A DNA stretch of 64,000 nucleotides from assembly GCA_032622095.1 (NCBI GenBank), contig CP136069.1, forward strand, positions 3,189,566 through 3,253,565. The letters run 5' to 3'. This document shows, one piece after another, positions 2,308 to 61,900 of the stretch. Source of the DNA: Siphonodentalium dalli. Taxonomy: Eukaryota > Mollusca > Scaphopoda > Gadilida > Siphonodentaliidae. A program made the translations under genes and the position numbers. Within the stretch, counting starts at the first letter, position 1. The number at the start of each line of letters is the position of its first letter. The notes under the pieces are model-generated. The model searched no databases. It was not told the origin of the DNA and was given only the letters and a program-made list of their open reading frames with translations.

Positions 2308-4830
2308 TTATTCCTGATGATTCTTACCGAGATGAATGAGAGCATCAAGAATGTATGAAAGCTGTTTGTATCGGAGGAGATAATCGAGTGATGTCCCGAC
2401 ATTACTTATTAACGCTCCATGATGATTCTTACCGAGATGAATGAGAGCATCGAGAATGTATGAAAGCTGTTTGTATCGGAGGAGATAATCGAGTGCTGTC
2501 CCGACATTACTTATTAACGCTCCATGATGATTCTTACCGAGATGAATGAGAGCATCGAGAATGTATGAAAGCTGTTTGTATCGGAGGAGATAATCGAGTG
2601 ATGTCCCGACATTACTTATTAACGCTCCATGATGATTCTTACCGAGATGAATGAGAGCATCGAGAATGTATGAAAGCTGTTTGTATCGGAGGAGATAATC
2701 GAGTGCTGTCCCGACATTACTTATTAACGCTCCATGATGATTCTTACCGAGATGAATGAGAGCATCGAGAATGTATGAAAGCTGTTTGTATCGGAGGAGA
2801 TTATCGAGTGCTGTCCCGACATTACTTATTAACGCTCCATGATGATTCTTACCGAGATGAATGAGAGCATCGAGAATGTATGAAAGCTGTTTGTATCGGA
2901 GGAGATTATCGAGTGCTGTCCCGACATTACTTATTAACGCTCCATGATGATTCTTACCAAGATGAATGAGAGCATCGAGAATGTATGAAAGCTGTTTGTA
3001 TCGGAGGAGATAATCGAGTGCTGTCCCGACATTACTTATTAACGCTCCATGATGATTCTTACCGAGATGAATGAGAGCATCGAGAATGTATGAAAGCTGT
3101 TTGTATCGGAGGAGATAATCGAGTGATGTCCCGACATTACTTATTAACGCTCCATGATGATTCTTACCGAGATGAATGAGAGCATCGAGAATGTATGAAA
3201 GCTGTTTGTATCGGAGGAGATAATCGAGTGATGTCCCGACATTACTTATTAACGCGACATTACTTATTAACGCTCCATGATGATTCTTACCGAGATGAAT
3301 GAGAGCATCGAGAATGTATGAAAGCTGTTTGTATCGGAGGAGATAATCGAGTGATGTCCCGACATTACTTATTAACGCTCCATGATGATTCTTACCGAGA
3401 TGAATGAGAGCATCCAGAATGTATGAAAGCTGTTTGTATCGGAGGAGATTATCGAGTGCTGTCCCGACATTACTTATTAACGCTCCATGATGATTCTTAC
3501 CGAGATGAATGAGAGCATCGAGAATGTATGAAAGCTGTTTGTATCGGAGGAGATAATCGAGTGCTGTCCCGACATTACTTATTAACGCTCCATGATGATT
3601 CTTACCGAGATGAATGAGAGCATCGAGAATGTATGAAAGCTGTTTGTATTGGAGGAGATAATCGAGTGCTGTCCCGACATTACTTATTAACGCTCCATGA
3701 TGATTCTTACCGAGATGAATGAGAGCATCGAGAATGTATGAAAGCTGTTTGTATCGGAGGAGATAATCGAGTGCTGTCCCGACATTACTTATTAACGCTC
3801 CATGATGATTCTTACCGAGATGAATGAGAGCATCGAGAATGTATGAAAGCCGTTTGTATCGGAGGAGATAATCGAGTGATGTCCCGACATTACTTATTAA
3901 CGCTCCATGATGATTCTTACTGAGATGAATGAGTGCATCGAGAATGTATGAAAGCTGTTTGTATCGGAGGAGATTATCGAGTGCTGTCCCGACATTACTT
4001 ATTAACGCTTCATGATGATTCTTACCGAGATGAATGAGAGCATCGAGAATGTATGAAAGCTGTTTGTATTGGAGGAGATTATCGAGTGCTGTCCCGACAT
4101 TACCTATTAACGCTTCATGATGATTCTTACCGAGATGAATGAGTGCATCGAGAATGTATGAAAGCTGTTTGTATCGGAGGAGATAATCGAGTGCTGTCCC
4201 GACATTACTTATTAACGCTCCATGATGATTCTTACCGAGATGAATGAGAGCATCGAGAATGTATGAAAGCTGTTTGTATCGGAGGAGATAATCGAGTGCT
4301 GTCCCGACATTACTTATTAACGCTCCATGATGATTCTTACCGAGATGAATGAGAGCATCGAGAATGTATGAAAGCTGTTTGTATTGGAGGAGATTATCGA
4401 GTGCTGTCCCGACATTACCTATTAACGCTCCATGATGATTCTTACCGAGATGAATGAGAGCATCGAGAATGTATGAAAGCTGTTTGTATTGGAGGAGATA
4501 ATCGAGTGCTGTCCCGACATTACCTATTAATGCTCCATGATGATTCTTACCGAGATGAATGAGAGCATCGAGAATGTATGAAAGCTGTTTGTATCGGAGG
4601 AGATTATCGAGTGCTGTCCCGACATTACTTATTAACGCTCCATGATGATTCTTACCGAGATGAATGAGAGCATCGAGAATGTATGAAAGCTGTTTGTATC
4701 GGAGGAGATAATCGAGTGATGTCCCGACATTACTTATTAACGCTCCATGATGATTCTTACCGAGATGAATGAGTGCATCGAGAATGTATGAAAGCTGTTT
4801 GTATCGGAGGAGATAATCGAGAGCGGATTT
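2308..4830 (-). repeat. 105-bp minisatellite across exon 15 donor (24 units)
   Basis: About 24 tandem units of 105 bp, one with an extra 18 bp (a duplicated GACATTACTTATTAACGC near 3250). Each unit holds about 64 nt copied from the end of ASPM exon 15 (…[11 protein letters not shown]), the GTAAGAATC donor, and about 40 nt of intron. All lengths are multiples of three and no unit has a stop in the exon frame, so one frame stays open for 886 codons. Substitutions between units are both silent and amino-acid changing (Y/N, R/Q, A/S, G/S, G/E). The array ends with a degenerate unit near 2308. Confidence 0.95.
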
Positions 4831-4956
4831 TGTACGATTTCCAAGAGTTCTCTCCTCGGTGGCCAATCTGTTCACTTCTAATATCCGCTGTCTCACGAGG
4901 CTCAATCGCTTGTTGTTTCTCGATTCTTTTCTTACTTTGAAGCCCCTCCATGCCGA
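4761..4956 (-). CDS. ASPM: ASPM exon 15 of window: last IQ and start of C-terminal helical repeats
   Basis: This exon is 196 nt when the first donor is used (65 codons plus 1). It encodes [20 protein letters not shown], a basic linker, then [22 protein letters not shown], matching the start of the C-terminal domain of ASPM. In human ASPM the residue after this -HL is Glu, which fits the one-base overhang G before the donor CTCG/GTAAGA. The acceptor is CTTGACCTTTCAG/TCGGCA. The donor region is amplified 24 times downstream (2308-4830), so the true 3' end of the exon could be any in-phase donor as far as 2328. Confidence 0.92.
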
Positions 4957-7900
4957 CTGAAAGGTCAAGAAAGGTCAGTATAGAATAGAATAGAATAGAA
5001 TAGAATTTATTACCATAAAGGACCCCGAAGGGTAACATGTAGTGCGTAATCAAATTACACACAGATGAATGCAAATTCAAAAATAACATGCATAATATTA
5101 ATATATGATATTATAAGAAATGATAATAAGGCAGTTTTTAGGACGGATATCAGAATGGATACAAAGCAGTTGTCTTGAGAGGGCAAATGTCTGCTTACAA
5201 TGTACTTATGAATACTTGCTTGTGTTGAGACGAGGAAATCTTTAATAGAGATATTTAAATGAATCTGAAATTGATCAATTATAATATTTGTTTGGAGTTA
5301 CAGTGAATTAATATGACAGATGCATTCAGATAAGAATATATGTAATTATGTATTTTTCATATAACACAAGAAATGTCAGTATATAATGTATTCATGCCCG
5401 AGACTAAGATGCCTGTCCACAGAGGGTGTGAATTAAGTGATGCTATATCACATAGCGGGCTAGAATCACCAAATTCACCCTCTGGGGACCTCATTCTGCA
5501 TGGCCTATTGGCCTTATCTGCTATATGAGACAAAGACAAAGATTGAAGTTCCCAAATGGTGAATATTGTGATGTACACCCATTGGGAACCTCGATTATGC
5601 AATAAGTCATCTGCCAATTTGGGGATATAGAGAAACTAAACTAAAAAATAAATAGAATCTATGTAAAGAAGTTTCTATAGAAATTTTAAAAAGAAACTTT
5701 CCAGAGAAGATGAGGTCCCCACAATGTGAATTTGGTGATGCTGTTAGCGTCGCTGAATTCACCCTCCGGGGACCTCATTCTGCAAATGACAGACACGCTA
5801 TAATCAGGCTAATACGCTCCTGTATCTTTTTTTTAATTCTAAAGGTTTCCGGATTTATTATGTTTGTGTGTTTATGTACTCAACTTTTATTAGCCTGAAC
5901 CATTTAAAGACATATTATGGACTTGTTCGGGTGCGTGAAAATGATAAATTAGTACTCAGGCGCTATGCCAACTGGGGGAATGTAGCATTCTACTAACATC
6001 GCCCAAAATATCAAAGAAATCGACCATACCACTCCATAAAAAACACCGTCTGAACAACGCTCAATTGGAAATATTTACATCTCGATTCAGGACGCAACAA
6101 TTGGCGATAAACTAACGCCATTGGTATTCATTGCATTTAATATATATATAAGGCTGACGGTGTGTGTTGTAAATTTGGATTAATATTCATAAAAATAACT
6201 ACTTTGAGCAAGATTATTCTCCATTTCTAATTGATCACCTAACCGGAGTGTTTCACATCACTTTTAATAACACTTTCAGTGCCAAGTCCGATTTTTGTAT
6301 CAACCCATATTTCCTTGATCATTTTTCAAATTTATTGATTATAATAATGTGATACATTGATGGAAAGAGCTCTAAAATCGAACTTGGCACTGAAAGGGTT
6401 AATTTTGATATTTTTCACATAGAAAACAAACCTGAATAACAACTATAGCATTTCTTTTCGTTGCCATCGTTTTTCGGCAGAACCATTTCCGGATAGCGCA
6501 CTGAATACACTTAGCTGCGAATTCACGCCTTGCCTGGGATCGCCGGAAATACATCTGGATTTTAATTACAGCAGCGCGGCGTCTACAGAAGGATTTCCTT
6601 TCAAGGTATACTCTGAAACATCTCTGAAATAACAAGAAATCATGGCATTGAAATCCATGTAAAAAGGACGACGGCATGCACTATCCAGAACTCTATGTGA
6701 TGACTTATATGAATGTCAAGATTTAAATAACCATACATATTACATTAATATATGATTTTTCAAGTGGCCCATTCTCAATTTGGGTGAAATTTGAGTTACA
6801 TTAAGTACCCAACCCTTGGGTTGGAAATTCCAACTGGGGCTCAAATGAGTGGAACAAATAGTTCGCCCCTCCCATAATTTGGGTTGGAAATTATAATACA
6901 ACTGCACGTATTATAGCATATACGCGATTTGGTTTCCACCACATGTGGCTGGCCATTGGGAAACCCATTCTGGATGATAATTTTTATGAGATATTTTCAA
7001 AATAAATAATCTGATCTGCAGTGGATTTTTTGTCTTATGACTTCCCAAGGATGGTCGTTATAACTTTTACCACCAGTCGAGTAAAGTTTCTATAGCCTCA
7101 TTGGCACACCGTACGACTACTATATAGAACCTACTATTAATTATTAAATTTTTTAAATGGTCTTTCGGATCCCCAGTACATTGTGATTTGCTTTAAGTGT
7201 GCTATGTCGTTGGCAAAACATCAATAACTTTCGCGGGGAAATGCGCGTGCCAATATAACGTCGCTTTGGATACAACATATGACGTCGCCTAACAGTTTAC
7301 TGTAAAGTGTGACTGTGCTTTTACTAATTTACTAAACTAAAGAAAAGTTTATTTAGTGATATGACAAACATTTTAGATATTTACGAGATGAGTCACGCTG
7401 TTTTTGCGATGTGGCTAACGAATTTGTGCAGTTTTATTTTTTACGTAATTTCCCGAATGGCATAGCAACCCCGAGTCCGGTTGACAATATTTATGATTTA
7501 AGTAATGATTATTGTATAAATTATAAACCATGTAATACCTTCACGCAATGAATACCGCTGTTTTGGCTAAATGAAAAGTTACATTTTGTAGTTTTAATTT
7601 TATTGCAATGACGTTTCAAGATGGCGGCCCCTCAAATTCAAGATGGCGGCGCCCATGTTCGAAAACGAACTTAGTATAAGGACGACCAGCGCATATGTTG
7701 CTACGCAACACATGCGCGGCTGTTCTGCGCCCAGCTGGTCGTCCTTAAAAAATAGAACTCTCAAATTAATTAATCAAGAGCTGCAGCATAATTGCAATCA
7801 ACAGGTACAGTAATGCCCTAAATTATCGACTTCTTAACCACAGCTGAATTATGGGTAACTTTTCAGGATTTAGTCGGAAATATGGCTTGTTGCAATTCAT

Positions 7901-16900: not shown

Positions 16901-19900
16901 CCCCTCCCAAGTGACCATCTGGGCTGGTCCCCGTCTGCCAAGTCACCATCTAAGCTGGTTCCCTCCCAAGTCACCAAGTCTGCAAATAGTGTGTCTGTCA
17001 TTTGCAGAATGAGGTCCCCAGAGGGTGAATTTAGTGATGCTATCCCGCATAGTGGGCTAGCATCACCAAATTCACCCTCTAGATACCTCATTCTGCTTAG
17101 GCTTCTGGGAAGTATCTATAGTATTAAATTAACATTGTTTTTAGTTACGTTTTCCCTTCTGGGAAGTTTCTATATCCCCTAATTTTCAGAAGATAAAATT
17201 CATAATTGAGTGCCCAATGGGTGAACATCACCAACTTCAATTAGGAAACTAGGTCTACCATAGCAGTTGAGGGCCTTAGCAGAATGAGGTCCCCCAGAGG
17301 GTGAATTTAGTGATGCTAGCCCACTGTGCAGGATAGCATCACTAAATTCACCCTCTGGGGACCCCATTCTGCAAATGACACCATCTAGGCTGGTCCCTGG
17401 ATCCACTGACCTTGACATTTCTCTTTTCCACGTATTTTCTGTAGCTTCTTTGAATACATGTGGCAGCCCGAGTTTCATGGTGGAACACTTCATCTCTCTT
17501 ATTCCGCAGATACCGCCTCACGTTCCGCTGGATACATTTGGCAGCCTCGGTTTGTTGATAGTACACCTCTTCTAGTTTTTTCCGCAGATACCTTCTCACA
17601 TGACGCTGAAGCCTCACAACAGCCAGCAGCATCTTCTTATCCTGTCGTCGCTTCAGATAGCGACGGACGGTGGCCTGTAGTTTAACCACGGCTTTAATCT
17701 GCTCGTAACACTTCCTAGCACGGTAACCACGGTAAACGCTCTGGATCTTCACAGCAGCAGATCTGTTTCTTCCATTAAAACTTTTCAGTTTTTTCATAAA
17801 CAAATAGGATCGGACGTATCGCTGGATACAAACAATAGAGTCTTTGATAACCGTATATCGTTTCCTGGCAACACGCCCTCTGAACACTGACTGTATACAA
17901 ACGACGGCATGCAGAGTATTCAGGTAAATAGTCCGTTGTCGATAATTTCTGAAGGTTGCTTGGATACGAGTTGCAGCTTTTACACAAACGACGGCATGTA
18001 GAGTATTCAGGTAAATAGTTCGTTGTCGATACATTCTGAAGGTTGCTTGGATACGAGTTGCAGCTTTTACACAAACGACGGCATGCAGAGTATTCAGGTA
18101 AATAGTCCGTTGTCGATACTTTCTGAAGTTTGCTTGGATATGAGTTACAGCTTTTATCCTCTCATCAGATTTTCTTGTCTGCCATTTTCGGAAGTATTTC
18201 TGTATCTGAATAACAGACGACTTGATCTGTTGGTATCTCACGACATCTCTCCGTCTTTCCAAACAAGCCCTCCATCGCGTCTGTAGCTTAATAACAGAAG
18301 ATTTTATTTGTTGGTATCTCACGACATCTCTCCGTCTTTCCAAATAAGCCCTCCATCTCGTCTGTATCTGAATAACAGAAGATTTGATCTGTTGGTATCT
18401 CATGAGGTCTCTCTGTCTTTCCAAACAAGCCCTCCATCTCGTCTGAATAATTCTCACAGCTTTCTGGTATTCCCTGTATTTACGTCGACAATTTGTCATT
18501 CTGATGAGTGACTGCAGTTTAACAACCAACGTACGTGTCCGAATATAATCTTGATGGACAAGAAACCTCCTGATAAATGATTGAATTACAACCGCTGACT
18601 TAACCCGTTCCAGATAGGACTGACGAATTATTCTTCCACAACATACATTCCTCCAGTGAAGCTGTATGACCAGGGCGGCATACTTCTTGCAGAGAAACTC
18701 TTTTTGTTGCTTATAACCCCTGTATCGACATTGTATCAATACAATCTTTCTTCTGATTTCCATATACATTTTCCTTACTATGAACATTCTGTAATAGCTT
18801 TGAATTGTAACAGCGCATCGATTTAGTTTCAAAGCTTTTCGTTCTTGGAACTGCCTGAAATGTTTCTGCAGGCAGTTAATGGCCAATCTCCTCCGTTGGA
18901 AGTCAAATTGATCGTTTAATCCTTTCAGGCTAGCTAGATACACTTCCTTTGATTTTGCAGCGATGGCGTGCAGGTGTCTAACGCTCTCCATGTTACAGCT
19001 AATAATCCGACAGGACGTGAATGGCGTTGACGGCAGACGATGGTGATGAGGCTTCTCCATAAACTCTGCGAGAATAAACTGAACATGTCTGCTATCGCAT
19101 TCTTTAGAAATGAGTTGATTTTTTAATTTCGTGACATTTGAACGACGGAACCAATTCTGGATTATTACAGCTGCGTACACACTCTGCGCAGACTTCAGCC
19201 GGCATTGCTGACATCTGTACGCACTCTGAACAATTTTAGCAGATTTGTGTAAAAGAGCAATATGTTTTTGTATGAGATACCGTCTGAAGTGTTTCTGTAT
19301 CGTTACTGATGCCGAGACTAAGCGACTGAATTTCACCCTCGTCCTCCGACACAACTGGTTTGATCTAACACGACTCTGCATGCTGACAATCAAATGACGC
19401 GATTGAATGTACTTTCGTCTAACTGACAGCATTTTCATCCATGATTGGATCTTGATAGCAGACTTCATCTCAACTGCATACTTCTTCGCTTTCCAAGATC
19501 TGTATGCGGACTGGATTGTGACGCATGCGGATTTCTGTCGAACATACTCCCCGCGAGACTTCTGCATGTTTGATACAGATCTCATCCACCGTTGGATACT
19601 AATAGCGGCATTCAGTGTCTGCTTGTATTTTATTCTAGCTTGATGCATCCTAAAATTCTTCTGAAGCACAATGCTTGCCTGAAACATAAACCCCGAAATT
19701 AAATGTGAATATATAAATTATCATGGTCCACTGAGAATCAACTGATAAATTTAAACAGGTTTATTTATTTTAAACTTTTTTCTTATAGACAAACAACTTA
19801 ATCATTCACTCATAAATGCTCAACACCTTAGTTAACCCTTTACCCAACAAAATGCCCAAATAAAGCTTCAACAGCCTAAAATATATTCGGTCTGTCTCAA

Positions 19901-22900
19901 TAAAACCATACAAATATGGATATCATTGGAACCGGTTCATTGACCACATTGTGATGGTTAAAGTTATGCCCTGTGCCAATGCATTCTCTTATATATGCGA
20001 GTCGACCATAGGTCGCCTCGCATATATAAGAGAATGCATTGGCCTAAAAAAAAAATTATAATATTTTTCTACATTCTTTGACAATTTTATCATTTTTAAT
20101 ATGTGTTAAGCCAATGCATTCTCTTATATATGCGAGGCGACCTATGGTCGACTCGCATATATAAGAGAATGCATTGGCACAGGGCCGTTCTGTTGGGTAA
20201 AGGGTTAATAGAATATTTTAGAAGTTAATAGAATATTTTAGATTTTTGTTGTTCAGTTGTGATGGTATTTCTAATTCTCTGAAAGTAAGAAATTTCTCTA
20301 CAAGTAGCATAGTCCAATTTGACTTGATTTCTCACAGTGGCATCATGACAGGGTTCATACACCTAGCTGAGAGTAAAATTCCATAACTTTTAGATATATA
20401 TTGATTTCTCACAGTGGCACCATGACCGGGTTCATACACCTAGCTGAGAGTAAAATTCCATAACTTTTAGATATATATTGATTTCTCACAGTGGCATCAT
20501 GACAGGGTTCATACATCTAGTTGAGAGTAAAATTCCTTAACTTTTTCAAGACTTTCGGACAGATTTTTCAGTTAAAACATTCCATAACTTTTCCATACCT
20601 CGTACCTAGCTAAACAATGAGGAAGACCAATATATAGAGGATCTCACATGAGTTTCTAGTTTATACGGAATTTATCAACCGAGTTCACTAAATTCGATTT
20701 GAGCCGAGGTTTACTGAGGCTCAAATTGAATTTAGTGGACGAGGCTGATAAATTACGTATAAAATAGGACGAGTGTGAGATACCTTTTATCACATGATCA
20801 AATAAACCCGAAGCAACGCGCAATATTCATCGAAAACAACAATCATAAACTACAGCGATCGCAAGTTATTTGAAGAACGCCGTGACGTCATTGCACGCGC
20901 TGATATTAAACACATATACGTTAGTTAAAATGAGCCCTTTATCTGCAAAGATGCATTTAACTAATTAAGCTGATATGAACAATAAATCATAAATGGTTCG
21001 CATCTGCACCCAGAGTCTATAATTTCTAAAATCATTGGGAAAAAAATTACGATTTTCCGGTTATGGATCACGATTTATTTCGAACAAGGCAATACAACGA
21101 TTAAAACTATGTTTGCACCCTATAAAATGGTGCTCTCGGATAATTTTGTCGCCAAATATATTCAGTAACATCAGGTAACATCGGTGAATTTAGAGAGAGT
21201 ACGCATTGACATAATTGTTTTAGGTCCGTTCGATTCGCGTTCTGTTATTGCGTATATAAATGAGTTCGGGTAAGTGAGACAATTCGTGTTTCGGCATACC
21301 GTAAAACGTGTAGTTCCAACTATAACTACGGAGATGGTATCGTAAGCTTACACGATAAGAACGGAAAGTAACAGCGTTTATTTACCTAAGAACTCGGCCT
21401 TGGGATATGACTTTTCAAGACCTTGAATCTCAGGGGAGCTTATTTTCAAGACTTTTCCCATAGTAGGGTGAAAAAAGGTCCCATTTTCCAGAATTTTCAA
21501 GGGTATTGAATCGAAATGTTCGAATTCCATAACTTTTCCAGGATTCCAGACCCGCGTACGAACCCTGCATGATAAATTATGTCAGCTCAATTAGTATTTA
21601 TATTAATCTAGATACAAACATGCTTAAATTTAACATTGTAACGTGGATCACCGGAGACATAGCAGAAGTATATGAACTACAAACCTGCTTTAATTTAACG
21701 TAGTATCCGTGTATCACTCGGGCCTTCCACCAGGCCTGTATAGCTATAGCCGACCCGAGCTGTAGTATGTATGCTCTGCGATCTTGCAGCAGAAGGATCT
21801 TCAATCTGAGCCGCCTCTGCATCGAAATGATTACTCTTCTGGAGCAGTTGTATCTCCGTCGTTGAATCCATCCCCTAACTCTAGACTGCAGAAACATAAC
21901 CTGCCGTCTAATCCGCCGATATTCAGCCTGATCTCGATGCCGTCTCCACACTGCCTGGATGACAGTAGCGGCTCCTTCTCTTCTCTTCGTGTAACCTCTC
22001 CATGACCTCTGTATGATGACGCAAGCTTTTCGTTTCATTTTAAATCCACTCTCCGTCTTCTTCGTCAGTAGTCTCGATTTGTAGAATGTTTGAATAATGA
22101 CAGCAGCCTTTTTAAGTCTGTGATACCGCATCCTTACTGAATGCATTCTAGAATAACTTTGAATGATGATCGCAGCACACTTTTGAGTTAAATATAGTCT
22201 TTGCTGCTTATATGATTTATAACATTTCTGAATCATCAGGGCGGCAGTGTTCCACTTTGAGATTTCATACCGCTGTCTGTAACCTCTATATAATCTTTGT
22301 ATGACGACAGCAGCTAGTCGTCTCTGCTTCATATCGCATCTAACTCTGTGTCCTTTGTAATGTTTCTGGACAACAAATGTAGCATCCCTTAGTTTCTTAT
22401 ACAAATGCCTTTGCATATATCCTCTAAAATAGCGTTGTATGGTCACTGCACACAATTTAATCTTCTGAAACTCACGTCTGTTCCTGTATCCTCTGAAATA
22501 GCGTTGAAGGGTCAGAGCACATGATTTAATCTTCTGAAACCCACGTCTGTCCCTGTATCCTCTAAAATAGCGTTGTATGGTCACTGCACACAATTTAATC
22601 TTCTGAAACTCACGTCTATCCCTGTATCCTCTGAAATAGCGTTGTATGGTCACTGCACACGATTTAATCTTCTGAAACTCACGTCTATCCCTGTATCCTC
22701 TGAAATAGCGTTGTATGGTCAGAGCACATGATTTAATCTTCTGAAACTCACGTCTATCCCTGTATCCTCTGAAATAGCGTTGTATGGTCACTGCACACGA
22801 TTTAATCTTCTGAAACTCACGTCTATCCCTGTATCCTCTAAAATAGCGTTGTATGGTCACTGCGCATGATTTAATCTTCTGAAACTCACGTCTGTCCCTG

Positions 22901-25900
22901 TATCCTCTAAAATAGCGTTGTATGGTCACTGCACACAATTTAATCTTCTGAAACTCACGTCTGTTCCTGTATCCTCTGAAATAGCGTTGTATGGTCACTG
23001 CACACAATTTAATCTTCTGAAACTCATGTCTACCCCTGTATCCTCTAAAATAGCGTTGTATGGTCACTGCGCATGATTTAATCTTCTGAAACTCACGTCT
23101 GTCCCTGTATCCTCTGAAATAGCGTTGTATGGTCACAGCACACGATTTAATCTTCTGAAACTCGCGTCTGTCCCTGTATCCTCTAAAATAAACTTGAATT
23201 GACAATGTAGCTGATTTTAACTCCAGAAACTCACTCCTTGCTAACTTCATCAAATATCTCGAGCGTACTGCCGTTTGAATAACCATCGCTGCATTTCTCT
23301 TCTTCATATAATTTCTTCTCTCCACAACCACCCGACGATTTTTCTGAACAACTCTCACAGCTTCCTGTATTTTCTTGTATTCCTGTCTCTGTCGGTATCC
23401 TTTCCAGGAACTCTGAATAATCATCGAAGCGCAACGTTGTCGTAGCATTTTTCTGTGGTGATAAACCCTCCATGCTTTTTGAATGGACACCGCAGATCGT
23501 CTTACAGTAACGTACTGCTCTCTAAATTTCTTACGAGCCGTATATGCCCGGACACTTCTCTGTAGCACGACTACAGCATGCTTCTTACAATTGTAATCTC
23601 GCCTAGCAACAAGCCCACGATAATAACTCTGTAGTAACACTGCTGCGGATCTCATCCTAATGTACTCTCTCGTCTCAATGAACGACCTGAAGTGCGTTTG
23701 AATGGTTACAGCTGAACGCCGAATTCTGCGGTACTCAAGTTGAGCAACATTCCTCTTCAACTTAGCTCTGTAAATGTTCTGCATAACGACTGCCGCATTC
23801 TTCATCTGAACAAAGTTCTTTCTTGCTAACCAGCCTCTGATCGCTCGCTGCAGTGTAAGAGCTGATGTCTTCTTGCGACAGTATTCTTTCAGTAGAACGT
23901 GACACCTCCACTGAGTCTGTATCATTGTTGCTGCTTCCATTTCTTTCACTGATCTCATCTCGATAATTTTCCTGTACTGGCGTTGCATTACGACAGCTGC
24001 AATTCTCAGCTTTGTATAACCTTGACACACACCTTTCATCAGTTTCCACGATCTGAATCGCTGTTGAATAATCATTGCCGATGATTTTTTCTCAGTAAAC
24101 ATCTTCCTCTCATGCACGCATCTCAACACTGACTGGATCTTTATTGTTGCTCTCTTCTTTTTTTCGTATTCTTTTCTTGCTAAGAAACCAACAACAGCGC
24201 TCTGAAATGAAATACATAACAAAATGTATAAATATGAAATATAAGGCATTTAAAAAGAAATACAGGGCTGTGTTCTCAGGTAATTATATAGGAGAAATTG
24301 AACGAGGGAGGCTTTATAAATAAATACCTGTGTTCTCCAGTGTTCTCAGGTAATTACATGTGAGAAATTGGATGAGGGAGGTAATTTAACTAATTTTATG
24401 GTAAAAATCCTACAACTTCCAAATTGTTGTATAAAATCTGTCATCCAATGCGTTTTAGCCAATAAGTCTTCAACAGAAACCTACCTAAAGGTCTAATTGT
24501 GGGTCAATTGGAGAATTAGTTTTGAACTCTTTTAAAATTTTGGATAAAATAGTAAAGAATTTCTTTTGATGAGGCCCTCTTCTTGGCGATTAATAATCAA
24601 AATTGAAATTCCCTGCCGATTTTACCCGTCTATATGAGCACCATTGACAGTCTCCCTTTCTGATATTAGTTGTAATTTTACATCTGGTGATACAGTCTGG
24701 TGTGCACGAATTTCGTAATCAACAGCCCCTAGTCGACACCAACCATGTACCGGTATATACAACCTGAACATCCCACATGAATTTCTCAAACTATGTTTTA
24801 GACATTTTGATTTCTAAGTGTTTGAATGCAGGTTATATCGTAAATTTATTAGAATGTCCATATCTATAGTGTTGAAACGATTAGCGATTTTAAGGAATCG
24901 ACTAGTCGCCAGAGGTGATCGACTACTAGTCGACTAGTTGGACCCCTTCCAAGAGTTCCCGTTTCTATGCCCATATGACGTATAAAATGGGCCATGTGGC
25001 ATCGCAGTTTTGAGTATACAACTCTTCGTTTCAGAACGTTCAAACGGAAAGCACGTGAACTATATAATCTCCCGTTTTGCCCGTGAGTCTCCCAATTTGA
25101 TGTCTTAAACCCAGCTCTCATGCAACCTCCATATAATCTCACGGTTCGGGGAATGCAGGTAATAAAAACTTATTTCAACAAAATTGTCGCCGGTAACAAG
25201 GAAATATATACGCAAGTCTCGTTCGTAAGTCTCGCTAACGAGATGTCGGGTGTATTCTATTGATGAGGCCCTCTCTGAATAGGTGCCTCATGTCGCTGGC
25301 TGGGGGGGGGTATGGGTATTAGAATCTATTCAGTTACTGAGTTGACTTTACCAGCTTGACTTGTCGCAAATTATGTTTCGTATATCATTGAAGCCATTTT
25401 GTTGCATCATTACTCTAGTATTACACGTGCCACAGTGAGAAGTTATCACTGGTCAATTGCGTCACATCGAACTAGACAGTGTTCAGGCGGCAGCGACACT
25501 TCATTTCTTTGATGATCAACATAAAAGAAACCGCTCCTACACGTGCATACATTGGGTTCAGTACAGGTCATGGAGTTCACCGCCCATGCGTGACTGATGG
25601 CATCGTTAAAGGAACAATGCAATAAGGCTTTAAGAAGTTAATATGTGTTAACTGTTACAGATTACGTTATAATATGGCAGTGCAATGGCACTGCTATCAT
25701 GATAGCACATAGGTAGTGCTTTTTCCCGACTAATCGACTAGCATATTTCGGGATCGACTAATTTAATAGTTGCATCGACTACGACTAGTCGATTAATCGT
25801 TTCAACACTACATATCTATCATTATATTTATCGATGCAGTGTTGCTGACCTAGATGAGTATCACATTTTATGCTCAAACTGAAAAATATAATATTAGGAT

Positions 25901-37900: not shown

Positions 37901-40900
37901 ACGCATGTAATCCAGTATACCCCATATCATTTGGATCGGGGTATAACTAAACTATTGGTTGAGGCTGCGAATGCCAAATATACTCTGATGACGTTTTGCG
38001 GAGATGGGAAATCCGGATTGTTATTTATAATAACCGATATGAACAATAATAATATTGACTGAACGACATCGTGGCTTTGAGATTACCCATAATTGGTAAT
38101 AAATTGATCAATGCGACTGCATGCGAACCATTCTGTGCGGAATTTAAGAATTTTCAAGGATAGTTGTTGTTTGAACTACTTTTAAAGGAAGAAATCTATT
38201 TATTGTAATATGTAATGTTACCCCACAAGAATAAAAATAGAACTGTAATTCGGGATTTTTTTTACCCTGTGCCAATGCATTCTCTTATATATGCATTGGC
38301 CTAACAATTTTTTACAATTTTAATAATTTTTTCTTGTATTCTTTAACAATTTTATAATTTCACCCATACAGAGCCCCAGACAAATATGAGCAGACGACAC
38401 TCTTCTATATGCTTCTATATATGTGTGGTGCTCCCTGCAGGGTAATGGATGTTTTTTATTTTATGTCCTAAAAATTGTAAGAAAAATTGATAAAAAAAAA
38501 TGATAAAAAATTGTTAGGCCAATGCATTCTCTTATATATGCGAGGCGACCTATGGTCGACTCACATATATATGAGAATGCATTGGCACAGGGTAAAATAT
38601 CGGACTGAACCCACTCTCCAGGGTATAACAATGGTATATTTGTGGGAAATACAGAAAATTTCAAAACGTTCAATAAACAATTCTTGAACAATACAAACCG
38701 ATTTCGTCAACGTCTCGGGCGACGTCAACAGACAATTTCTTCACTAAATTATTAGGTATAGTCTACACTAAGCACACGTTTGTTCAATTAAATAAACCAT
38801 ATAGACCTAAATTTTAGCATAGTACAAGCTACAATCTTCAGAATATGCAATAAACATAGAACAACACAGTTTTGTTAACATATTAACGTTATTGCACTCG
38901 TTTGTCATGTTGCCGCGAGGTAAAACTCGAACCTCTGGTTCTCATTTTACCATCGCGTCACAAGAAACTCGTGCAATAACGTTATCATGTTCACAGACTT
39001 GTGTCGTTCAGTTCTATCTATTTACACACTTTAAAAGGAGTGGGTTGAAATTTAAGCACTTTTCATTTTGAGTTAGAATTACACACGGCGTAATTTAAAA
39101 TGCGAACGACTGGCAGGTTGTTGAAAACAGTGATAAGGCCACACAAAATCAATGGTTTGTTTCTCAGGCGCGCGCGCATGCCCCCAAAACACCGCGCATT
39201 TAACATTTTATCGCGTTTGCAAAAAATGGAAAAAAAAATTTGGTACGAAATTTCTATGGTACGTTTCTCTTTCTCCGTATATTGCTCGATCTCGCGCGGA
39301 ACGGCAATCGAGTGTACCCGAATTTCCTGTGCTTCCGGTGCGTTTGTATTATTTTTTCGACTTTGAACAATTTCATGCCACTTCTAAGCATACATATCAA
39401 GCATTTGACGGCTATTTTGCTAGATTGGACGGTCATATCTGATTATAATGAAGCTGGCACACTAATTGAGCTATTACGGGACCAGATAACAAAACTTAAA
39501 GTCGTCATCGATGTGAAAAATGTAGAGCTGGACGATCTCGAAATCGAATGTTTTGTGGGCACGAACAGAACTGATGACCGTGAATTCCAGCGGGTAGCGC
39601 ATTCTGTGGCGCTGTCTGTTGCTGTTAAAGACCTTGTTGAGGAATTTGGGAAATATTTCAAGTTCAAACTATCTGAATCATCTGACAAGAAAAATGACAA
39701 TAAAAACCGAACTGAAGATGCCTTCAAAATGCTCATGGACAAGTCTAAACATAGACAAGATACAGTTTTTCTCCCCGAGAAGGTGGATGGAGGAAATTCT
39801 AAATGCCGACTCTTCAATGACATCATTGACATGCTCGAAAAAAACAATGTCGGTTGGACGGCTGACGCTGTCAACACAATTGGCAAATATTTTGAATAAA
39901 TAAAAAACATCAAATTCACAATATGCTTCATTTAATATTAAAATAGCTACACAAACAAGACTGGGAAAGTATCGGATATGGGCTTATCAAATAATTTACA
40001 GATGGTGTGAGATATGTGTACAAACAGACAGAACATGTGTCTGAATTTTAATATTAAAACAGTTGAATTAAATGAAAGTACAAATATTGAGGCATATACC
40101 TAGCATGCATATATAGCTCTACTAAAAGTGACTTTAGAACAGATGAACACACTTTGTACCTGTTTATTAAACAGTGATGTTGTATGGTATACACATATGC
40201 CATATTTTATTAAATGTTTTAATACTATAAATATTAAAATGCAAAACATTTCAAATATAATTCTATGATTGGCTGTATTCATATATCAAAAGGGTCATAT
40301 CTGACATATAAAATAAATCTTCCTTAATAATTGCCACTGTTGAATGTCAATTGATATCGAGACCTGCCAAGCAGTGATGATGTGGTATCTTTGCTAGAGT
40401 GACATTCAATCAATCAATCATATGAACCAGTACTTGTAAGTGAATACTCCTGTTTCTGTAAGAGGCCCCCACCCCCTTTCCGTACGCCGTATTCCATGCC
40501 CTGTTATGAGGTACCGTACGTGTATTCCGGCCCCTCTGTTAGGAGGTATTCGGTATTCCAAAAATACCGGTATTCGTACGCCGAACTTCCAAAAAATGAA
40601 GTTTTCATATATTTTTATGTATTCCATATGGCTGTCAACTGGTATTCCGTATTCCACCCTCTGTGTTAAGTGGTATTCCGTATTCCATGGGGGGTGGGGG
40701 TGGGGGCCTCCTGTAATAAGTGGGATGAGACACCTGAAAGAGAGACTAGTTAAAATAATATGACAGATTGTACCCCTGGGCTGGTATTCAGGTTATCAAT
40801 AACAGGATAGAGTGTTCAATTCAAGCAGTCAAATTTAGGGGAAAATACCATTTAATATAATAAAGATGAACAGTGTTCATCCTTGATGAACAGTGTTCAT

Positions 40901-43900
40901 CCTTATTATATTAAATGGTATGTTTCTCTAAAATTGACTGCTTGCTGCAGTGTTAGTAGCCCATGATAAAAAAATAAAATAAAAAATAAAAAATCGCCCT
41001 CCCTCATGCATTTAAAAAAAAAATGCCTGAGAAACAAAACATTGAGTTTGTGTAACCTAAAGCTTTTGATTGACAAGGTATTGAATACCTAGAATCACGG
41101 TAGAACTAACAAGAGGTTGCACTATGGGTGCTGAAATACCCCCATGGTGACAATCGAGATATGGACTGGTCGGAATCCAAATTGTGTAAAAACAAAATTC
41201 AAAACAAATTACTGGACAAACGAACGACGAACGGAAATCCAACATTTTCATATAAACAAAAAGGGATAACTTTTGAATGGAAAATGTGAAACATGTCGAT
41301 GAACCCTCTTTTGAAAGCACCCATGATGCCAAACCTACGTACCAAATTTAATTGAGATCCGATAACCAATGGTTGAGATATATGAATGGATGAACATAAA
41401 TCTAATATTTTCAGATCACCAAAGAGGGATAACTCTTGAATCGAAAGCACTCCTTGAGCCAAATCGGCATACAAAATTCTAACGATATCCGATAACCCAT
41501 GGTTGAGATATATGGACAGACGAACGAACACATGTAATCCATTATACCCCTCCCCATATCTTTTTGGGATGGGGGTATAATCATTTTTGTTTCTACAAGC
41601 ATGGTAAATATTGGTAAATCATGGTAAATATAAGTTGCTGACTGTAGTAATTAAATTTCTTACTTCCAAATATGGCTGGACTTGAGTCGAGAAAGCTGTC
41701 ATTGCCTGTGTTATTAAGATCTGCGATCTTCTCCTGGTGCGTCTGAGTTGTCTTATTGTTTATTAGATTCTTCGGCAGAAGTACTGGATGGTAGTGATGC
41801 ACGAGATAACACAATGCTCTCCCATCGGAGAAAGATACCGTGAAGTTCTCGATCTGTAAAAATACAAGAGATGGTAGTGGTGTCTGATGTATCACAGTTA
41901 TCTCACATCAGAGAAAGATACCGTGAAGTTCTCAATCTGTAAAAATACAAGAGATGGTAGTGGTGTCTGATGTATCACAATGTTCTCACATCAGTAAAGT
42001 TTTCAATCTAAAAGATGGACAAGCAAGATTAACCCCATTGAGAGCCTCACATAAACTGCAGCAGACGACACTCTGTAGTGCATGCTTCCATCTGTGTGAG
42101 GCTCCCTGTGAGTTAAACATTAAACCCTATATATCGCCTCGGTTATTAACCCTTTAGAGAGCCCCACATAAACTGCAGCAGACGACACTCTGTAGTGCAT
42201 GCTTCCATCTGTGTGAGGCTCCCTGTGAGTTAAACATTAAACCCTATATATCGCCTCGGTTATTAACCCTTTAGAGAGCCCCACATAAACTGCAGCAGAC
42301 GACACTCTGTAGTGCATGCTTCCATCTGTGTGAGGCTCCCTGTGAGTTAAACATTAAACCCTATATATCACCTCGGTTATTAACCCTTTAGAGAGCCCCA
42401 CATAAACTGCAGCAGACGACACTCTGTAGTGCATGCTTCCATCTGTGTGAGGCTCCCTGTGAGTTAAACATTAAACCCTATATATCGCCTCGGTTATTAA
42501 CCCTTTAGAGAGCCCCACATAAACTGCAGCAGACGACACTCTGTAGTGCATGCTTCCATCTGTGTGAGGCTCCCTGTGGGTTAAACATTAAACTTTAAAT
42601 ATTGCCTCGTTTATTAACCATTTCACTACGGGAGCTGTGCTGGTGCAGCATTAAAGATACGAATGGCCTTCGCGGCAGGTATTTGCTGACAAAATAGTAA
42701 CATCCGTTAAAACCGCCATAAACAGAAAGAATATTATAATATCGACAGATTTTGTTCTTATATCATTTCATAAATATTGTGTAAATAGTATGTTATTGTC
42801 AAGTTTGTATGCTTTGTTTGTAAACAAAAGCCAAATAATGTTACAGAATCTGTGTAGTTTGTAGCTTGCCAAAGTCCGATGAAGATTTACCGTTGTTTAT
42901 TGAGGGCGCTGTGGAAGACAGAGATAACATTAATTATTGTCGGCAAGCACAGCAAACTCATTCAAATCAAGCCTGCAAATAGCGTGTCTGTCATTTGCAG
43001 AATGAGGTCCCCAAAGGGTGAATTTAGTGACGCTAGCCCGCATAGTGCAGGATAGCATAACTAAATCACCCACTGGGGACCTCATTCTGCAAATGACAGA
43101 CTATTTGCAGACTTGATTCAATTCACATTAAGTCTCAATTTACAACAACGCATACTACCCATTGGCAGTTCAAAATCCAGCTATTAAATGTACATTAACT
43201 ACTTCATGATTGGGAAATGATCGGACAGAAAAAATGTACTACATGTAATCAGTATTGTCTTTGCAAAGATATTAAATTTTACTAATCCAGTTCGTATTTA
43301 CGTCACACACCAAATAAGGAATTTACGCTCTGTTTTACGATAATATTATTGTCACTTCTAAATTGTAGGTGCGCGCATGTTGTAAATACCTTATAAATTA
43401 CATCGAAATAAGGAATATTTACAAACATCGTAAAACACACGCACATCTAAATAAGGAGTTTACGCAATAGCAAGTCACATCAATAGCACAGAGAGTATGT
43501 TCATTGTAGCACAGAGAGTATGTTCATTGTAGCACAGAGAGTATGTTCATTGTAGCATGTCACATTAATAGCACAGAGAGTATGTTCATTGTAGCATGTC
43601 ACATTAATAGCACAGAGAGTATGTTCATTGTAGCACAGAGAGTATGTTCATTGTAGCATGTCACATTAATAGCACAGAGAGTATGTTCATTGTAGCATGT
43701 CACATTAATAGCACAGAGAGTATGTTCATTGTAGCACAGAGAGTATGTTCATTGTAGCATGTCACATTAATAGCACAGAGAGTATGTTCATTGTAGCACA
43801 GAGAGTATGTTCATTGTAGCATTAATTTCTTGTTCCTTTATGTTTATAATACAATTTTGTCGCAGCACGCTACATGGCGATTGCCTTTAGTTTATGACAA

Positions 43901-58900: not shown

Positions 58901-61900
58901 TAAGGCCATACACACTTAATAGTTCGTTTCTCAGGGATCGCTGCGTCCCCCAAAAACCTGCGCCTCCCCCTTATTTATTGGCACCTATAAAATAATAAAT
59001 ATATAAATACCGCATGTCCCAAAGCACCCCGGCCCGAATAACTCTTCTTAAAAGTTTACATACGTAAAGTGCAAATCTATCCGGCTAACCGGAATTTACA
59101 TTCACCAAGGGCGATAACTTCCGGTTAGCGACAAGATCAAAATGGCTACCTTGGTCAATATTTCTATCGGTGACCGATGTTGGACAATCATATCTGTCGA
59201 AAAGTCGAAATCCGTTCGTCAAATGGGGGAGGATTATATTGAGAAAACGAAAGATGTTGACGGTGCAAGCATCGGTGAATTTACGGTAGCGGTGGGGAGA
59301 ACAAAAACCGGCGATTTTGACGAACTTTCTCCGGAAATAAAGTGTGTGAGGTGATTGCAGTATTTGGAAGATACTTCAAAATTGTAATCGAAAACGATGT
59401 TCCACCGGCCGCCAATGTGAAAGTAACTGATGACGTGTTATCGATGATGATGACCAGTGGCAAAGAGATGGTTTTGACAAAAACTGTCAATGTAAAAAAT
59501 AAACCTGATGAGTTAACCAACTCATTCATTGATTGGTTGCAGGAGAAAAAAGTTGGTTTCCGACGGGATAGTCTGGACAGTGTCGGTCGACAGTTCGTAT
59601 CTAGTGTTTGTGATGCATTGTGGTATGTGGGGCCACACATTTCTAAACTAGAAGATAGAGCGTATCATGTTCCAGAATCACTTCGCAAGTTCTTTGGCTA
59701 TAACGACCCCAAAAAGTCAAAGCATGGAGTGCCACGACTAGACAGTCTGAAGCTTATAGATTTCACCGAGCAGTTGGGGAAAACGCTTGAGCAGCCTTTC
59801 CTGAAAGCTGAGTTGTGGAAGGAAATAAAAACAGCACTGTTTGATTTGACAGAAACCATTCATCTTAAACTGTCTCCTCTATACAACTTTATACCAATCT
59901 TTATTAAAAAATTAAGGGGATTATATGATGGTCAGCTGTCCTGTTTCACTATAGTGTCCATATCCAGTATTATTCCTTAATATGGACTCCGTTAAATATT
60001 ATATATATAAATACCTGCCTCACCACAAAATTAATTTGAAAAAAATAATAAATATAAATAACTGCCTCCCTCCCTCATCACTTTGAAAAAGAAAATCCCT
60101 GAGAAACAAACTATTAAGTTTATATGGCCTAATAAAGATGAAATAAAAGGGATGAACAAGTGAAGAAGAGAAACTCACGTTAATCTGTATCCGTCTTTCA
60201 AATCAGTGGCCAGATTCGACACTGAGAAGTCAAACTCATCCAGAGTTGTCTGCACATGGGTCACAGTTAGATCGAAGTAGGCGAGATGTTTAATGATGTC
60301 TCCCTCACCGCTCAGATAATCCCTCGAAAACAGAGTCAATAGTTCCTTACTCGACTGAAAAATACATAATCATTATACAGGGTTCATAACTTCATACAGA
60401 TAGTCTCTCAAAAAGACTCGCGGAGCCAACATCTCCTTTCACAGCAATTAAGCAACTGAAAACTACATAATAACCATACAGGTAATCTTACAAAATCAGA
60501 CTCGCAGAGCCAACATCGCCTTAACCCAACAAAACGGCCAAAAACGCCCAAATAAAGCTTCAACAGCCTAAAATATCTTCGGTCTGTTTCAATAACTAAA
60601 AAATTCTTTTTTAATACTTTTTACCATTTTTTCTTACATTTTTAAACAATTTTAATAATATTTTTCTACATTCTTTGTCAATTTTATCATTTTTAATATG
60701 TGTTAAGCGAATGCATTCTCTTATATATGCGAGGCGACCTATGGTCGACTCGCATATATAAGAGAATGTATTGGCACAGGGCCGTTCTATTGGGTAAAGG
60801 GTTAATGTCCGCTTCAATATCTTTCAGAATAAGGCAAAAATACCTGTCAATGTGTGTATAAACGAATGTGAGGCTTAAATTATTCCAACTAATGCCCAAC
60901 AAGAATAACATTCAAACGTACTTATGCCATTTTAAAAACAAAATCAGTCACCCCCCCCCCCCCCCCAGGAACTTACAAGAGAATTTATTTGCTCTCTTAT
61001 TACTAGTAATATAATCGTAAGTTGGGTTTTTCTCAAATAAAATGTCAATGTGGGATGTCCAATTACACTTTCACATGCCCATAATTTTACTGAGATGAGA
61101 AAGGTTTGAAATATATGTACCTTCAAATAGTTCAATATTGATTCAACGATCACAGTGACAATAAACATTTTGACAAGAAAAACAAGTGCAAATTAAAAAT
61201 TTGCGAGGGTATACAGGTGAGAGCATTTGATCCAATCTCCTGGGAGGGACTAAAAATAATGAATCTCCTGAGAAGGACTAAAAATAATGAATCTTCTAAG
61301 AAGGACTAAAAATAATGAATCTCCTGGGAAGGACTAAAAATAATGAATCTTCTGGGAAGGACTAAAAATAATGAATCTTCTGGGAAGGACTAAAAATAAT
61401 GAATCTCCTGGGAAGGACTAAAAATAATGAATCTCCTGGAAAGGACTAAAAATAATGAATCTTCTGGGAAGGACTAAAAATAATGAATCTCCTGGAAAGG
61501 ACTAAAAATAATGAATCTCCTGGAAAGGACTAAAAATAATGAATCTCCTGGGAAGGACTAAAAATAATGAATCTTCTGGGAAGGACTAAAAATAATGAAT
61601 CTCCTGGGAAGGACTAAAAATAATGAATCTCCTGGGAAGGACTAAAAATAATGAATCTCCTGGGAAGGACTAAAAATAATGAATCTCCTGGGAAGGACTA
61701 AAAATAATGAATCTCCTGGGAAGGACTAAAAATAATGAATCTCCTGGGAAGGACTAAAAATAATGAATCTTCTGGGAAGGACTAAAAATAATGAATCTTC
61801 TGGGAAGGACTAAAAATAATGAATCTCCTGGGAAGGACTAAAAATAATGAATCTCCTGGGAAGGACTAAAAATAATGAATCTTCTGGGAAGGACTAAAAA

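Follow-up and report, generated by a model that had tools for sequence, protein, structure and literature searches.

Twenty-four in-frame splice donors in a tandem array at exon 15 of a scaphopod ASPM-like gene, probably for the most part decoys

The window, that is, the whole stretch of 64,000 nucleotides analyzed here, lies at C9:3189566-3253565 (C9 being contig CP136069.1) in the nine-contig, 2.23-Gb assembly of Siphonodentalium dalli. Its minus strand carries an ASPM-like gene, for which a partial model was drawn by hand that may lack exons between those modelled. Judged from its sequence, the gene is an ASPM orthologue: a CH domain upstream of IQ motifs on one strand and a C-terminal similarity after the IQ repeats were both found. 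The CH domain (Pfam, 27.6 bits against a cut-off of 26) lies in the minus-strand frame 41593-41904, upstream of the IQ motifs, and its exon starts at 41853, as placed by the Pfam match and the acceptor; a further exon taken for CH, at ~60.2-60.35 kb, matched no Pfam family. The N-terminal ASH domain would be expected past the right edge of the window. Two minus-strand exons match Pfam IQ (E-values 5e-110 and 3e-78): one at 21685-24201, where a coding array holds 11 in-frame copies of a 69-bp unit, and one at 17411-19678, where the in-frame coding repeats have units of 87 and 81 bp. These arrays multiply IQ motifs and occupy 22418-23190 (69 bp), 17897-18156 (87 bp), and 18199-18445 (81 bp) of the minus strand. 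An upstream exon at 6432-6623 (minus), recognized by its open frame and splice sites, forms the end of the IQ region. It is followed by a 196-nt exon at 4761-4956 (minus), which begins in phase 0 at the acceptor CTTTCAG/TCGGCATGG and ends in phase 1 at the donor CTCG/GTAAGA (the slash marks the junction). This exon bears the number 15 given to it in the original prediction. With an approximate human ASPM C-terminus as the tblastn query, exon 15 gave an alignment of 45% over 69 columns (E 2e-10) that ends at position 4762. The same query found exons left of the window (E 2e-16, 2e-10, and 5e-6); the last ASPM exon located lies at C9:3180528-3180776.

At the end of exon 15 lies a 105-bp tandem array (2315-4821, minus; TRF), which as such is not a product of chance. 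The minus strand carries 24 GTAAGA donors, with last exonic bases at 4761, 4656, and so on to 2328; they are spaced by 105 bp in 22 of 23 intervals and by 123 bp in one, the latter through an 18-bp duplication within one unit (3237-3273, minus; six codons) that is the sole internal length change. Both the number of donors and their spacing in multiples of three thus agree with the original prediction. The first donor occupies 4759-4761 (the exonic G and the intronic GT) and the last 2326-2328, both on the minus strand. The context CTCG/GTAAGA is shared by 22 of the 24, the exceptions being CTCA at 3921 and CTTG at 2958. Each unit comprises 35 codons, of which ~61 nt match the end of exon 15 and ~44 nt, starting with the donor, do not. 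Aligned from donor to donor, the 23 complete units differ by a mean of 2.2% pairwise, with 12 point variants, 13 distinct sequences, and no stop codon; adjacent identical units number 3, vs. 2.0 in shuffles. The stop-to-stop frame (4974-2308) is open across all units and is closed by an in-frame TAA at 2308-2310, the seventh codon from that of the last donor. A further site, ATTCATCTCG/GTATCA (CTCG/GTATCA; 2273-2288, minus, last exonic base 2279), lies 49 bp beyond the last donor and is probably a decayed copy of another unit: its exact 13-base match to the units occurs once outside the array, while its flanking pieces gave alignment scores of 16 and 14 against 16 and 13 for the best of 100 shuffles. 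This site is out of frame and behind the stop, and the product of its use contains stops. A DNA search of the assembly returned at least 24 matches to the array, all those listed being at one place, so that no second haplotype appeared among them.

Exon 16 was found in 30 kb fetched to the left of the window. Its first base, C9:3189368, lies 198 bases to the left of window base 1, and its acceptor is CTTTAG/ATGCTGCTACT, also given as CTTTAG/ATGCTGCTACTCGG. The original prediction had held that every donor leaves the same one-base overhang, that all choices remain in frame, and that up to about 811 residues could be added. These statements stood once the true downstream exons were joined: exon 15 leaves a single G, exon 16 completes the codon GAT (G/AT), and scripted splices to exons 16 and 17 read without a stop before the end of exon 17 from 24 of 24 donors, with 0 to 811 additional residues, the upper figure belonging to the last donor. 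Splicing at the first donor yields ...ALIHL-D-AATRLSSVCCESM, which aligns to the approximate human ASPM sequence without a gap, and only this donor does so, which makes it the best candidate for the site used. The unit codons that do not derive from the exon have no match of their own in the approximate human fragment. Since the similarity to that fragment ends at the first donor and resumes at the next exon, the proposal that this donor is ancestral is likely to be correct. The array had also been placed where the C-terminal helical repeats of ASPM begin, and this is borne out by a published domain order in which the C-terminus is HEAT/armadillo-like (PMC12520113).

The exon 15 donor is not the only splice site of this gene to be repeated. 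Fifteen junctions in the window (the CH-exon donor not among them) were checked for copies of themselves, and junction-spanning matches appeared at three: the exon 15 donor, with 23 copies besides itself; the CH-exon acceptor, with one copy at 96%; and the donor at 21685, with one short match at 82.5% (21613-21685, minus) just inside the following intron. At the CH exon, an 83-bp repeat (41810-41994, minus) copies the acceptor TTTTTACAG together with the first 31 nt of the exon, so that at least one extra acceptor is present (true exon start 41853, copy start 41936). The outer copy is frame-shifted (83 mod 3 = 2) and reads to a stop. Left of the window, the exon 17 donor GAGAG/GTGAGT occurs three times in a 73-bp unit (C9:3184736-3186415), each copy followed by GTGAGTTAA, and the repeat is interrupted by ~1.4 kb of other, inserted-looking sequence; use of donor 2 or 3 would place a TAA as the third codon beyond the exon. 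Exon 16 also has 25 bp of its end copied in its intron, 74 bp on (C9:3189169-3189267); this is perhaps a further, truncated junction-spanning duplication. Because the 83-bp and 73-bp sister repeats are out of frame and meet stops, exon-straddling repeats recur here regardless of frame. As the outer copies at the CH acceptor and the exon 17 donor cannot give the protein, the exon-nearest site probably dominates at both, as it must if the gene works. The out-of-frame sisters likewise support dominance of the first donor at exon 15 and, although read from DNA, are the strongest indirect evidence for it.

Whether the open frame has been selected was approached in three ways, none of them decisive. 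Across three other donors of the gene, simulated duplications with random ends came out open and in frame in 17, 12, and 5% of cases, and across the exon 15 junction in 13 or 2%, depending on the intron start taken; over these five settings (0.02 to 0.17), an open, in-frame array is only mildly unlikely by chance. Away from the arrays and the four modelled exons, 45% of the 42-mers on the minus strand were open (19,334/42,669), as were 53% of those beginning with GGT (261/490). The variants of the exon 15 array comprise 7 replacement and 5 silent changes (P = 0.18 against neutrality, in a test of low power). Among the coding controls in the IQ exons, the 69-bp array gave 7:7 (P = 0.026), the 81-bp array 6:6 (P = 0.046), and the 87-bp array, from 2 units alone, 4:2 (P = 0.52); the pooled coding arrays (17:15) were indistinguishable from the exon 15 array (Fisher P = 1.0, again with low power). 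Purifying selection was therefore rejected as proof that the array codes, since replacements are not significantly few and the pooled controls do not differ, and the unit variants fit both neutrality and coding. By one replacement, 7 of the 23 units carry N in place of Y at a residue that is identical in the approximate human ASPM sequence. Given this replacement and the 2 of 12 variants that lie inside the 9-nt donor (1.0 expected), the donors are not visibly protected.

Manual merging of 102 TRF rows, with short rows left out, gave 26 arrays in the window, which make up ~26% of its length (e.g., 64 bp x 52 and 28 bp x 58). All three arrays inside IQ exons are open and have periods that are multiples of three. 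Outside the four modelled exons, such periods are found in 5 of 22 arrays, a set that includes the 83-bp repeat, which overlaps the CH exon (not one of the four). Of these 22, none of the nine longer than 400 bp is open throughout, while six short arrays of 78-151 bp have an open frame along 96-100% of their length. A lack of frameshifts was also discarded as proof of coding: the 28-bp array of 58 copies, outside the modelled exons, has no indels either, and the single in-frame 18-bp duplication thus tells little.

Neither donor strength nor RNA accessibility marks one site as the one used. By a weight matrix of approximate human values, 22 of the 24 donors score identically, the first being no better by sequence than the others, and the CTCA change lowers the predicted pairing with U1 from -8.2 to -4.5 kcal/mol. 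Predicted accessibility is 0.035 at the first donor vs. a median of 0.061, and such differences are small. The encoded units were also modelled. AlphaFold2, run on the single sequence of exon 15 plus 6 units, predicts two helices per unit (pLDDT 65, pTM 0.49). A Foldseek search with this model listed LGN and importin-alpha first, with low TM-scores and a loose likeness to TPR and armadillo solenoids, and gave no match at E <= 0.001. According to this model, the units, if included in the protein, could be structurally harmless. Searches with the array found no Pfam family and no solved chain at E <= 1, and confirmed no relatives in the prokaryote and viral collections; six weak NCBIfam matches, all far under their cut-offs, were taken as chance matches of repetitive sequence.

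Several known systems resemble this arrangement in part. By analogy, intron 7 of human F7 offers the best precedent: it has 37-bp repeats that each carry a donor, of which only the most upstream is said to be used ("oriented scanning"), and in a +5 mutant the use of a downstream donor yields no functional protein (PMC6627357). As in F7, each ASPM repeat copies the authentic donor and the first copy is the end of the exon, here the point at which the similarity to human ASPM ends. On the other hand, the F7 repeat of 37 bp is not a multiple of three, whereas the 24 ASPM donors follow one another at 105 bp, every one of them in frame and open. Oriented scanning was reportedly put forward in a 2006 paper. 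In human segmental duplications, tandem repeats at exon-intron boundaries modify introns, and 66% of such modifications also have transcripts that keep the repeat (PMC2812944). Like the ASPM array, these are minisatellite units at an exon-intron boundary; kept or spliced out, they change protein length, as the ASPM array would. The human cases, which belong to recent paralogues and are backed by transcripts, have a mean of 4 units of 30 bp, whereas the ASPM array has 24 donors in 105-bp units. Short-range tandem donors also present competing neighboring 5' splice sites, but those differ by 3-6 nt (PMC2423196), and the 24 ASPM donors by 105 nt. The choice between donors can be shifted to the intron-proximal site by the action of SRSF1 (PMC5585400). 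Within the same gene, the minisatellites of the IQ exons are likewise multiples of three and fully open; they differ in lying inside exons and in carrying no splice site.

The lack of clear coding constraint (7:5) together with the two out-of-frame sisters favors a neutral array with decoy donors, which the original prediction had itself named as its alternative. With a probability of roughly 0.68, the exon 15 array consists mainly of decoys, the first donor being chiefly used and the other 23 serving as intronic spares. To the observed array, with its phase, its open frame, the similarity that ends at the first donor, and its out-of-frame sisters, this reading adds a predominant use of that donor, a mechanism of growth, and a tolerance of the result. 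A tandem duplication straddling the end of exon 15 would have founded the 105-bp minisatellite, which unequal exchange or slippage would then have enlarged to 24 donor copies. The spliceosome would join mainly the most upstream donor to exon 16, giving the normal protein and leaving 23 decoys within the intron. Occasional choice of a later donor would still produce a readable, longer protein, as the unit happens to be open and in frame, and this may have made the exon 15 array better tolerated than its out-of-frame sisters. Several observations sit less easily with mainly decoy donors. The array keeps its frame open from end to end, like the arrays of the IQ exons (3 of 3) and unlike the long arrays outside the four modelled exons (0 of 9), and the only change of length within it, 18 bp, preserves the frame. 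The ratio of its variants cannot be distinguished from that of the pooled coding arrays, and the donors are equal bar two, the first being unmarked by sequence and slightly less accessible. In addition, most intron modifications by boundary repeats in human segmental duplications also have repeat-keeping transcripts (PMC2812944).

That human precedent, in which repeat-bearing and repeat-free transcripts are both common (PMC2812944), would also suit appreciable use of several donors, yielding ASPM proteins in steps of 35 residues (0 to 811) and a HEAT/armadillo-like C-terminus lengthened by helical hairpins. Each of the 24 donors would keep the frame and meet no stop through exon 17, 22 donors score alike, and the predicted pair of helices per unit resembles a solenoid, with LGN and importin-alpha first among the Foldseek hits. 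However, the model is of low confidence, its TM-scores are low, and no match reached E <= 0.001; in our judgement, repeats modelled from a single sequence tend to look solenoid-like. Such a role is closed to the sister repeats of the CH exon and exon 17, and a single donor is used in the F7 precedent (PMC6627357). Graded use is unlikely. It is equally doubtful that this spindle protein has a C-terminal helical domain whose length depends, in 35-residue steps, both on the donor chosen and on the number of units, varying between tissues and individuals. Distinctly less probable is that the last donor, nearest the acceptor, always wins and that the array simply codes for 811 further residues, in the manner of the IQ-exon repeats. 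The open frame does close just after the last donor, exons of 2.3 and 2.5 kb and other in-frame coding arrays exist in this gene, and SRSF1 can favor intron-proximal donors (PMC5585400). Yet 23 upstream donors, mostly equal in score, would have to be skipped, 811 residues would enter a run that is similar between this animal and the approximate human ASPM sequence, and the units are without clear purifying selection. The unit number or the array itself could be an artefact of assembly, which near-identical units make difficult, or the gene copy could be non-functional. This is very improbable given an assembly of nine contigs for 2.23 Gb, 13 distinct sequences among 23 units, modelled exons before and after the array that are open with plausible splice sites, and an array at one place among the matches listed.

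If graded use were true, a neutral splice-junction repeat would offer a conserved mitotic gene a simple route to graded protein lengths, and variation in copy number would become variation in protein length. Should the first donor be the only one used, the locus would be a natural test of spliceosome choice among 24 near-identical donors spaced by 105 nt, for which the out-of-frame repeats of a donor and of an acceptor in the same gene would be built-in controls.

Other features lie in and near the gene. Two plus-strand open frames within the ASPM span (39321-39899 and 59321-59977) match no Pfam family and are remotely related to one another (28% over 88, E 7e-9). A 33-bp x 54 array, with a period that is a multiple of three, is found at C9:3178774-3180541, close to the last ASPM exon found. 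By eye and from TRF consensus units only, the motif GCAGAATGAGGTCCCCAGAGGGTGAATTTAGTGATGC marks elements that recur across the window in either orientation.
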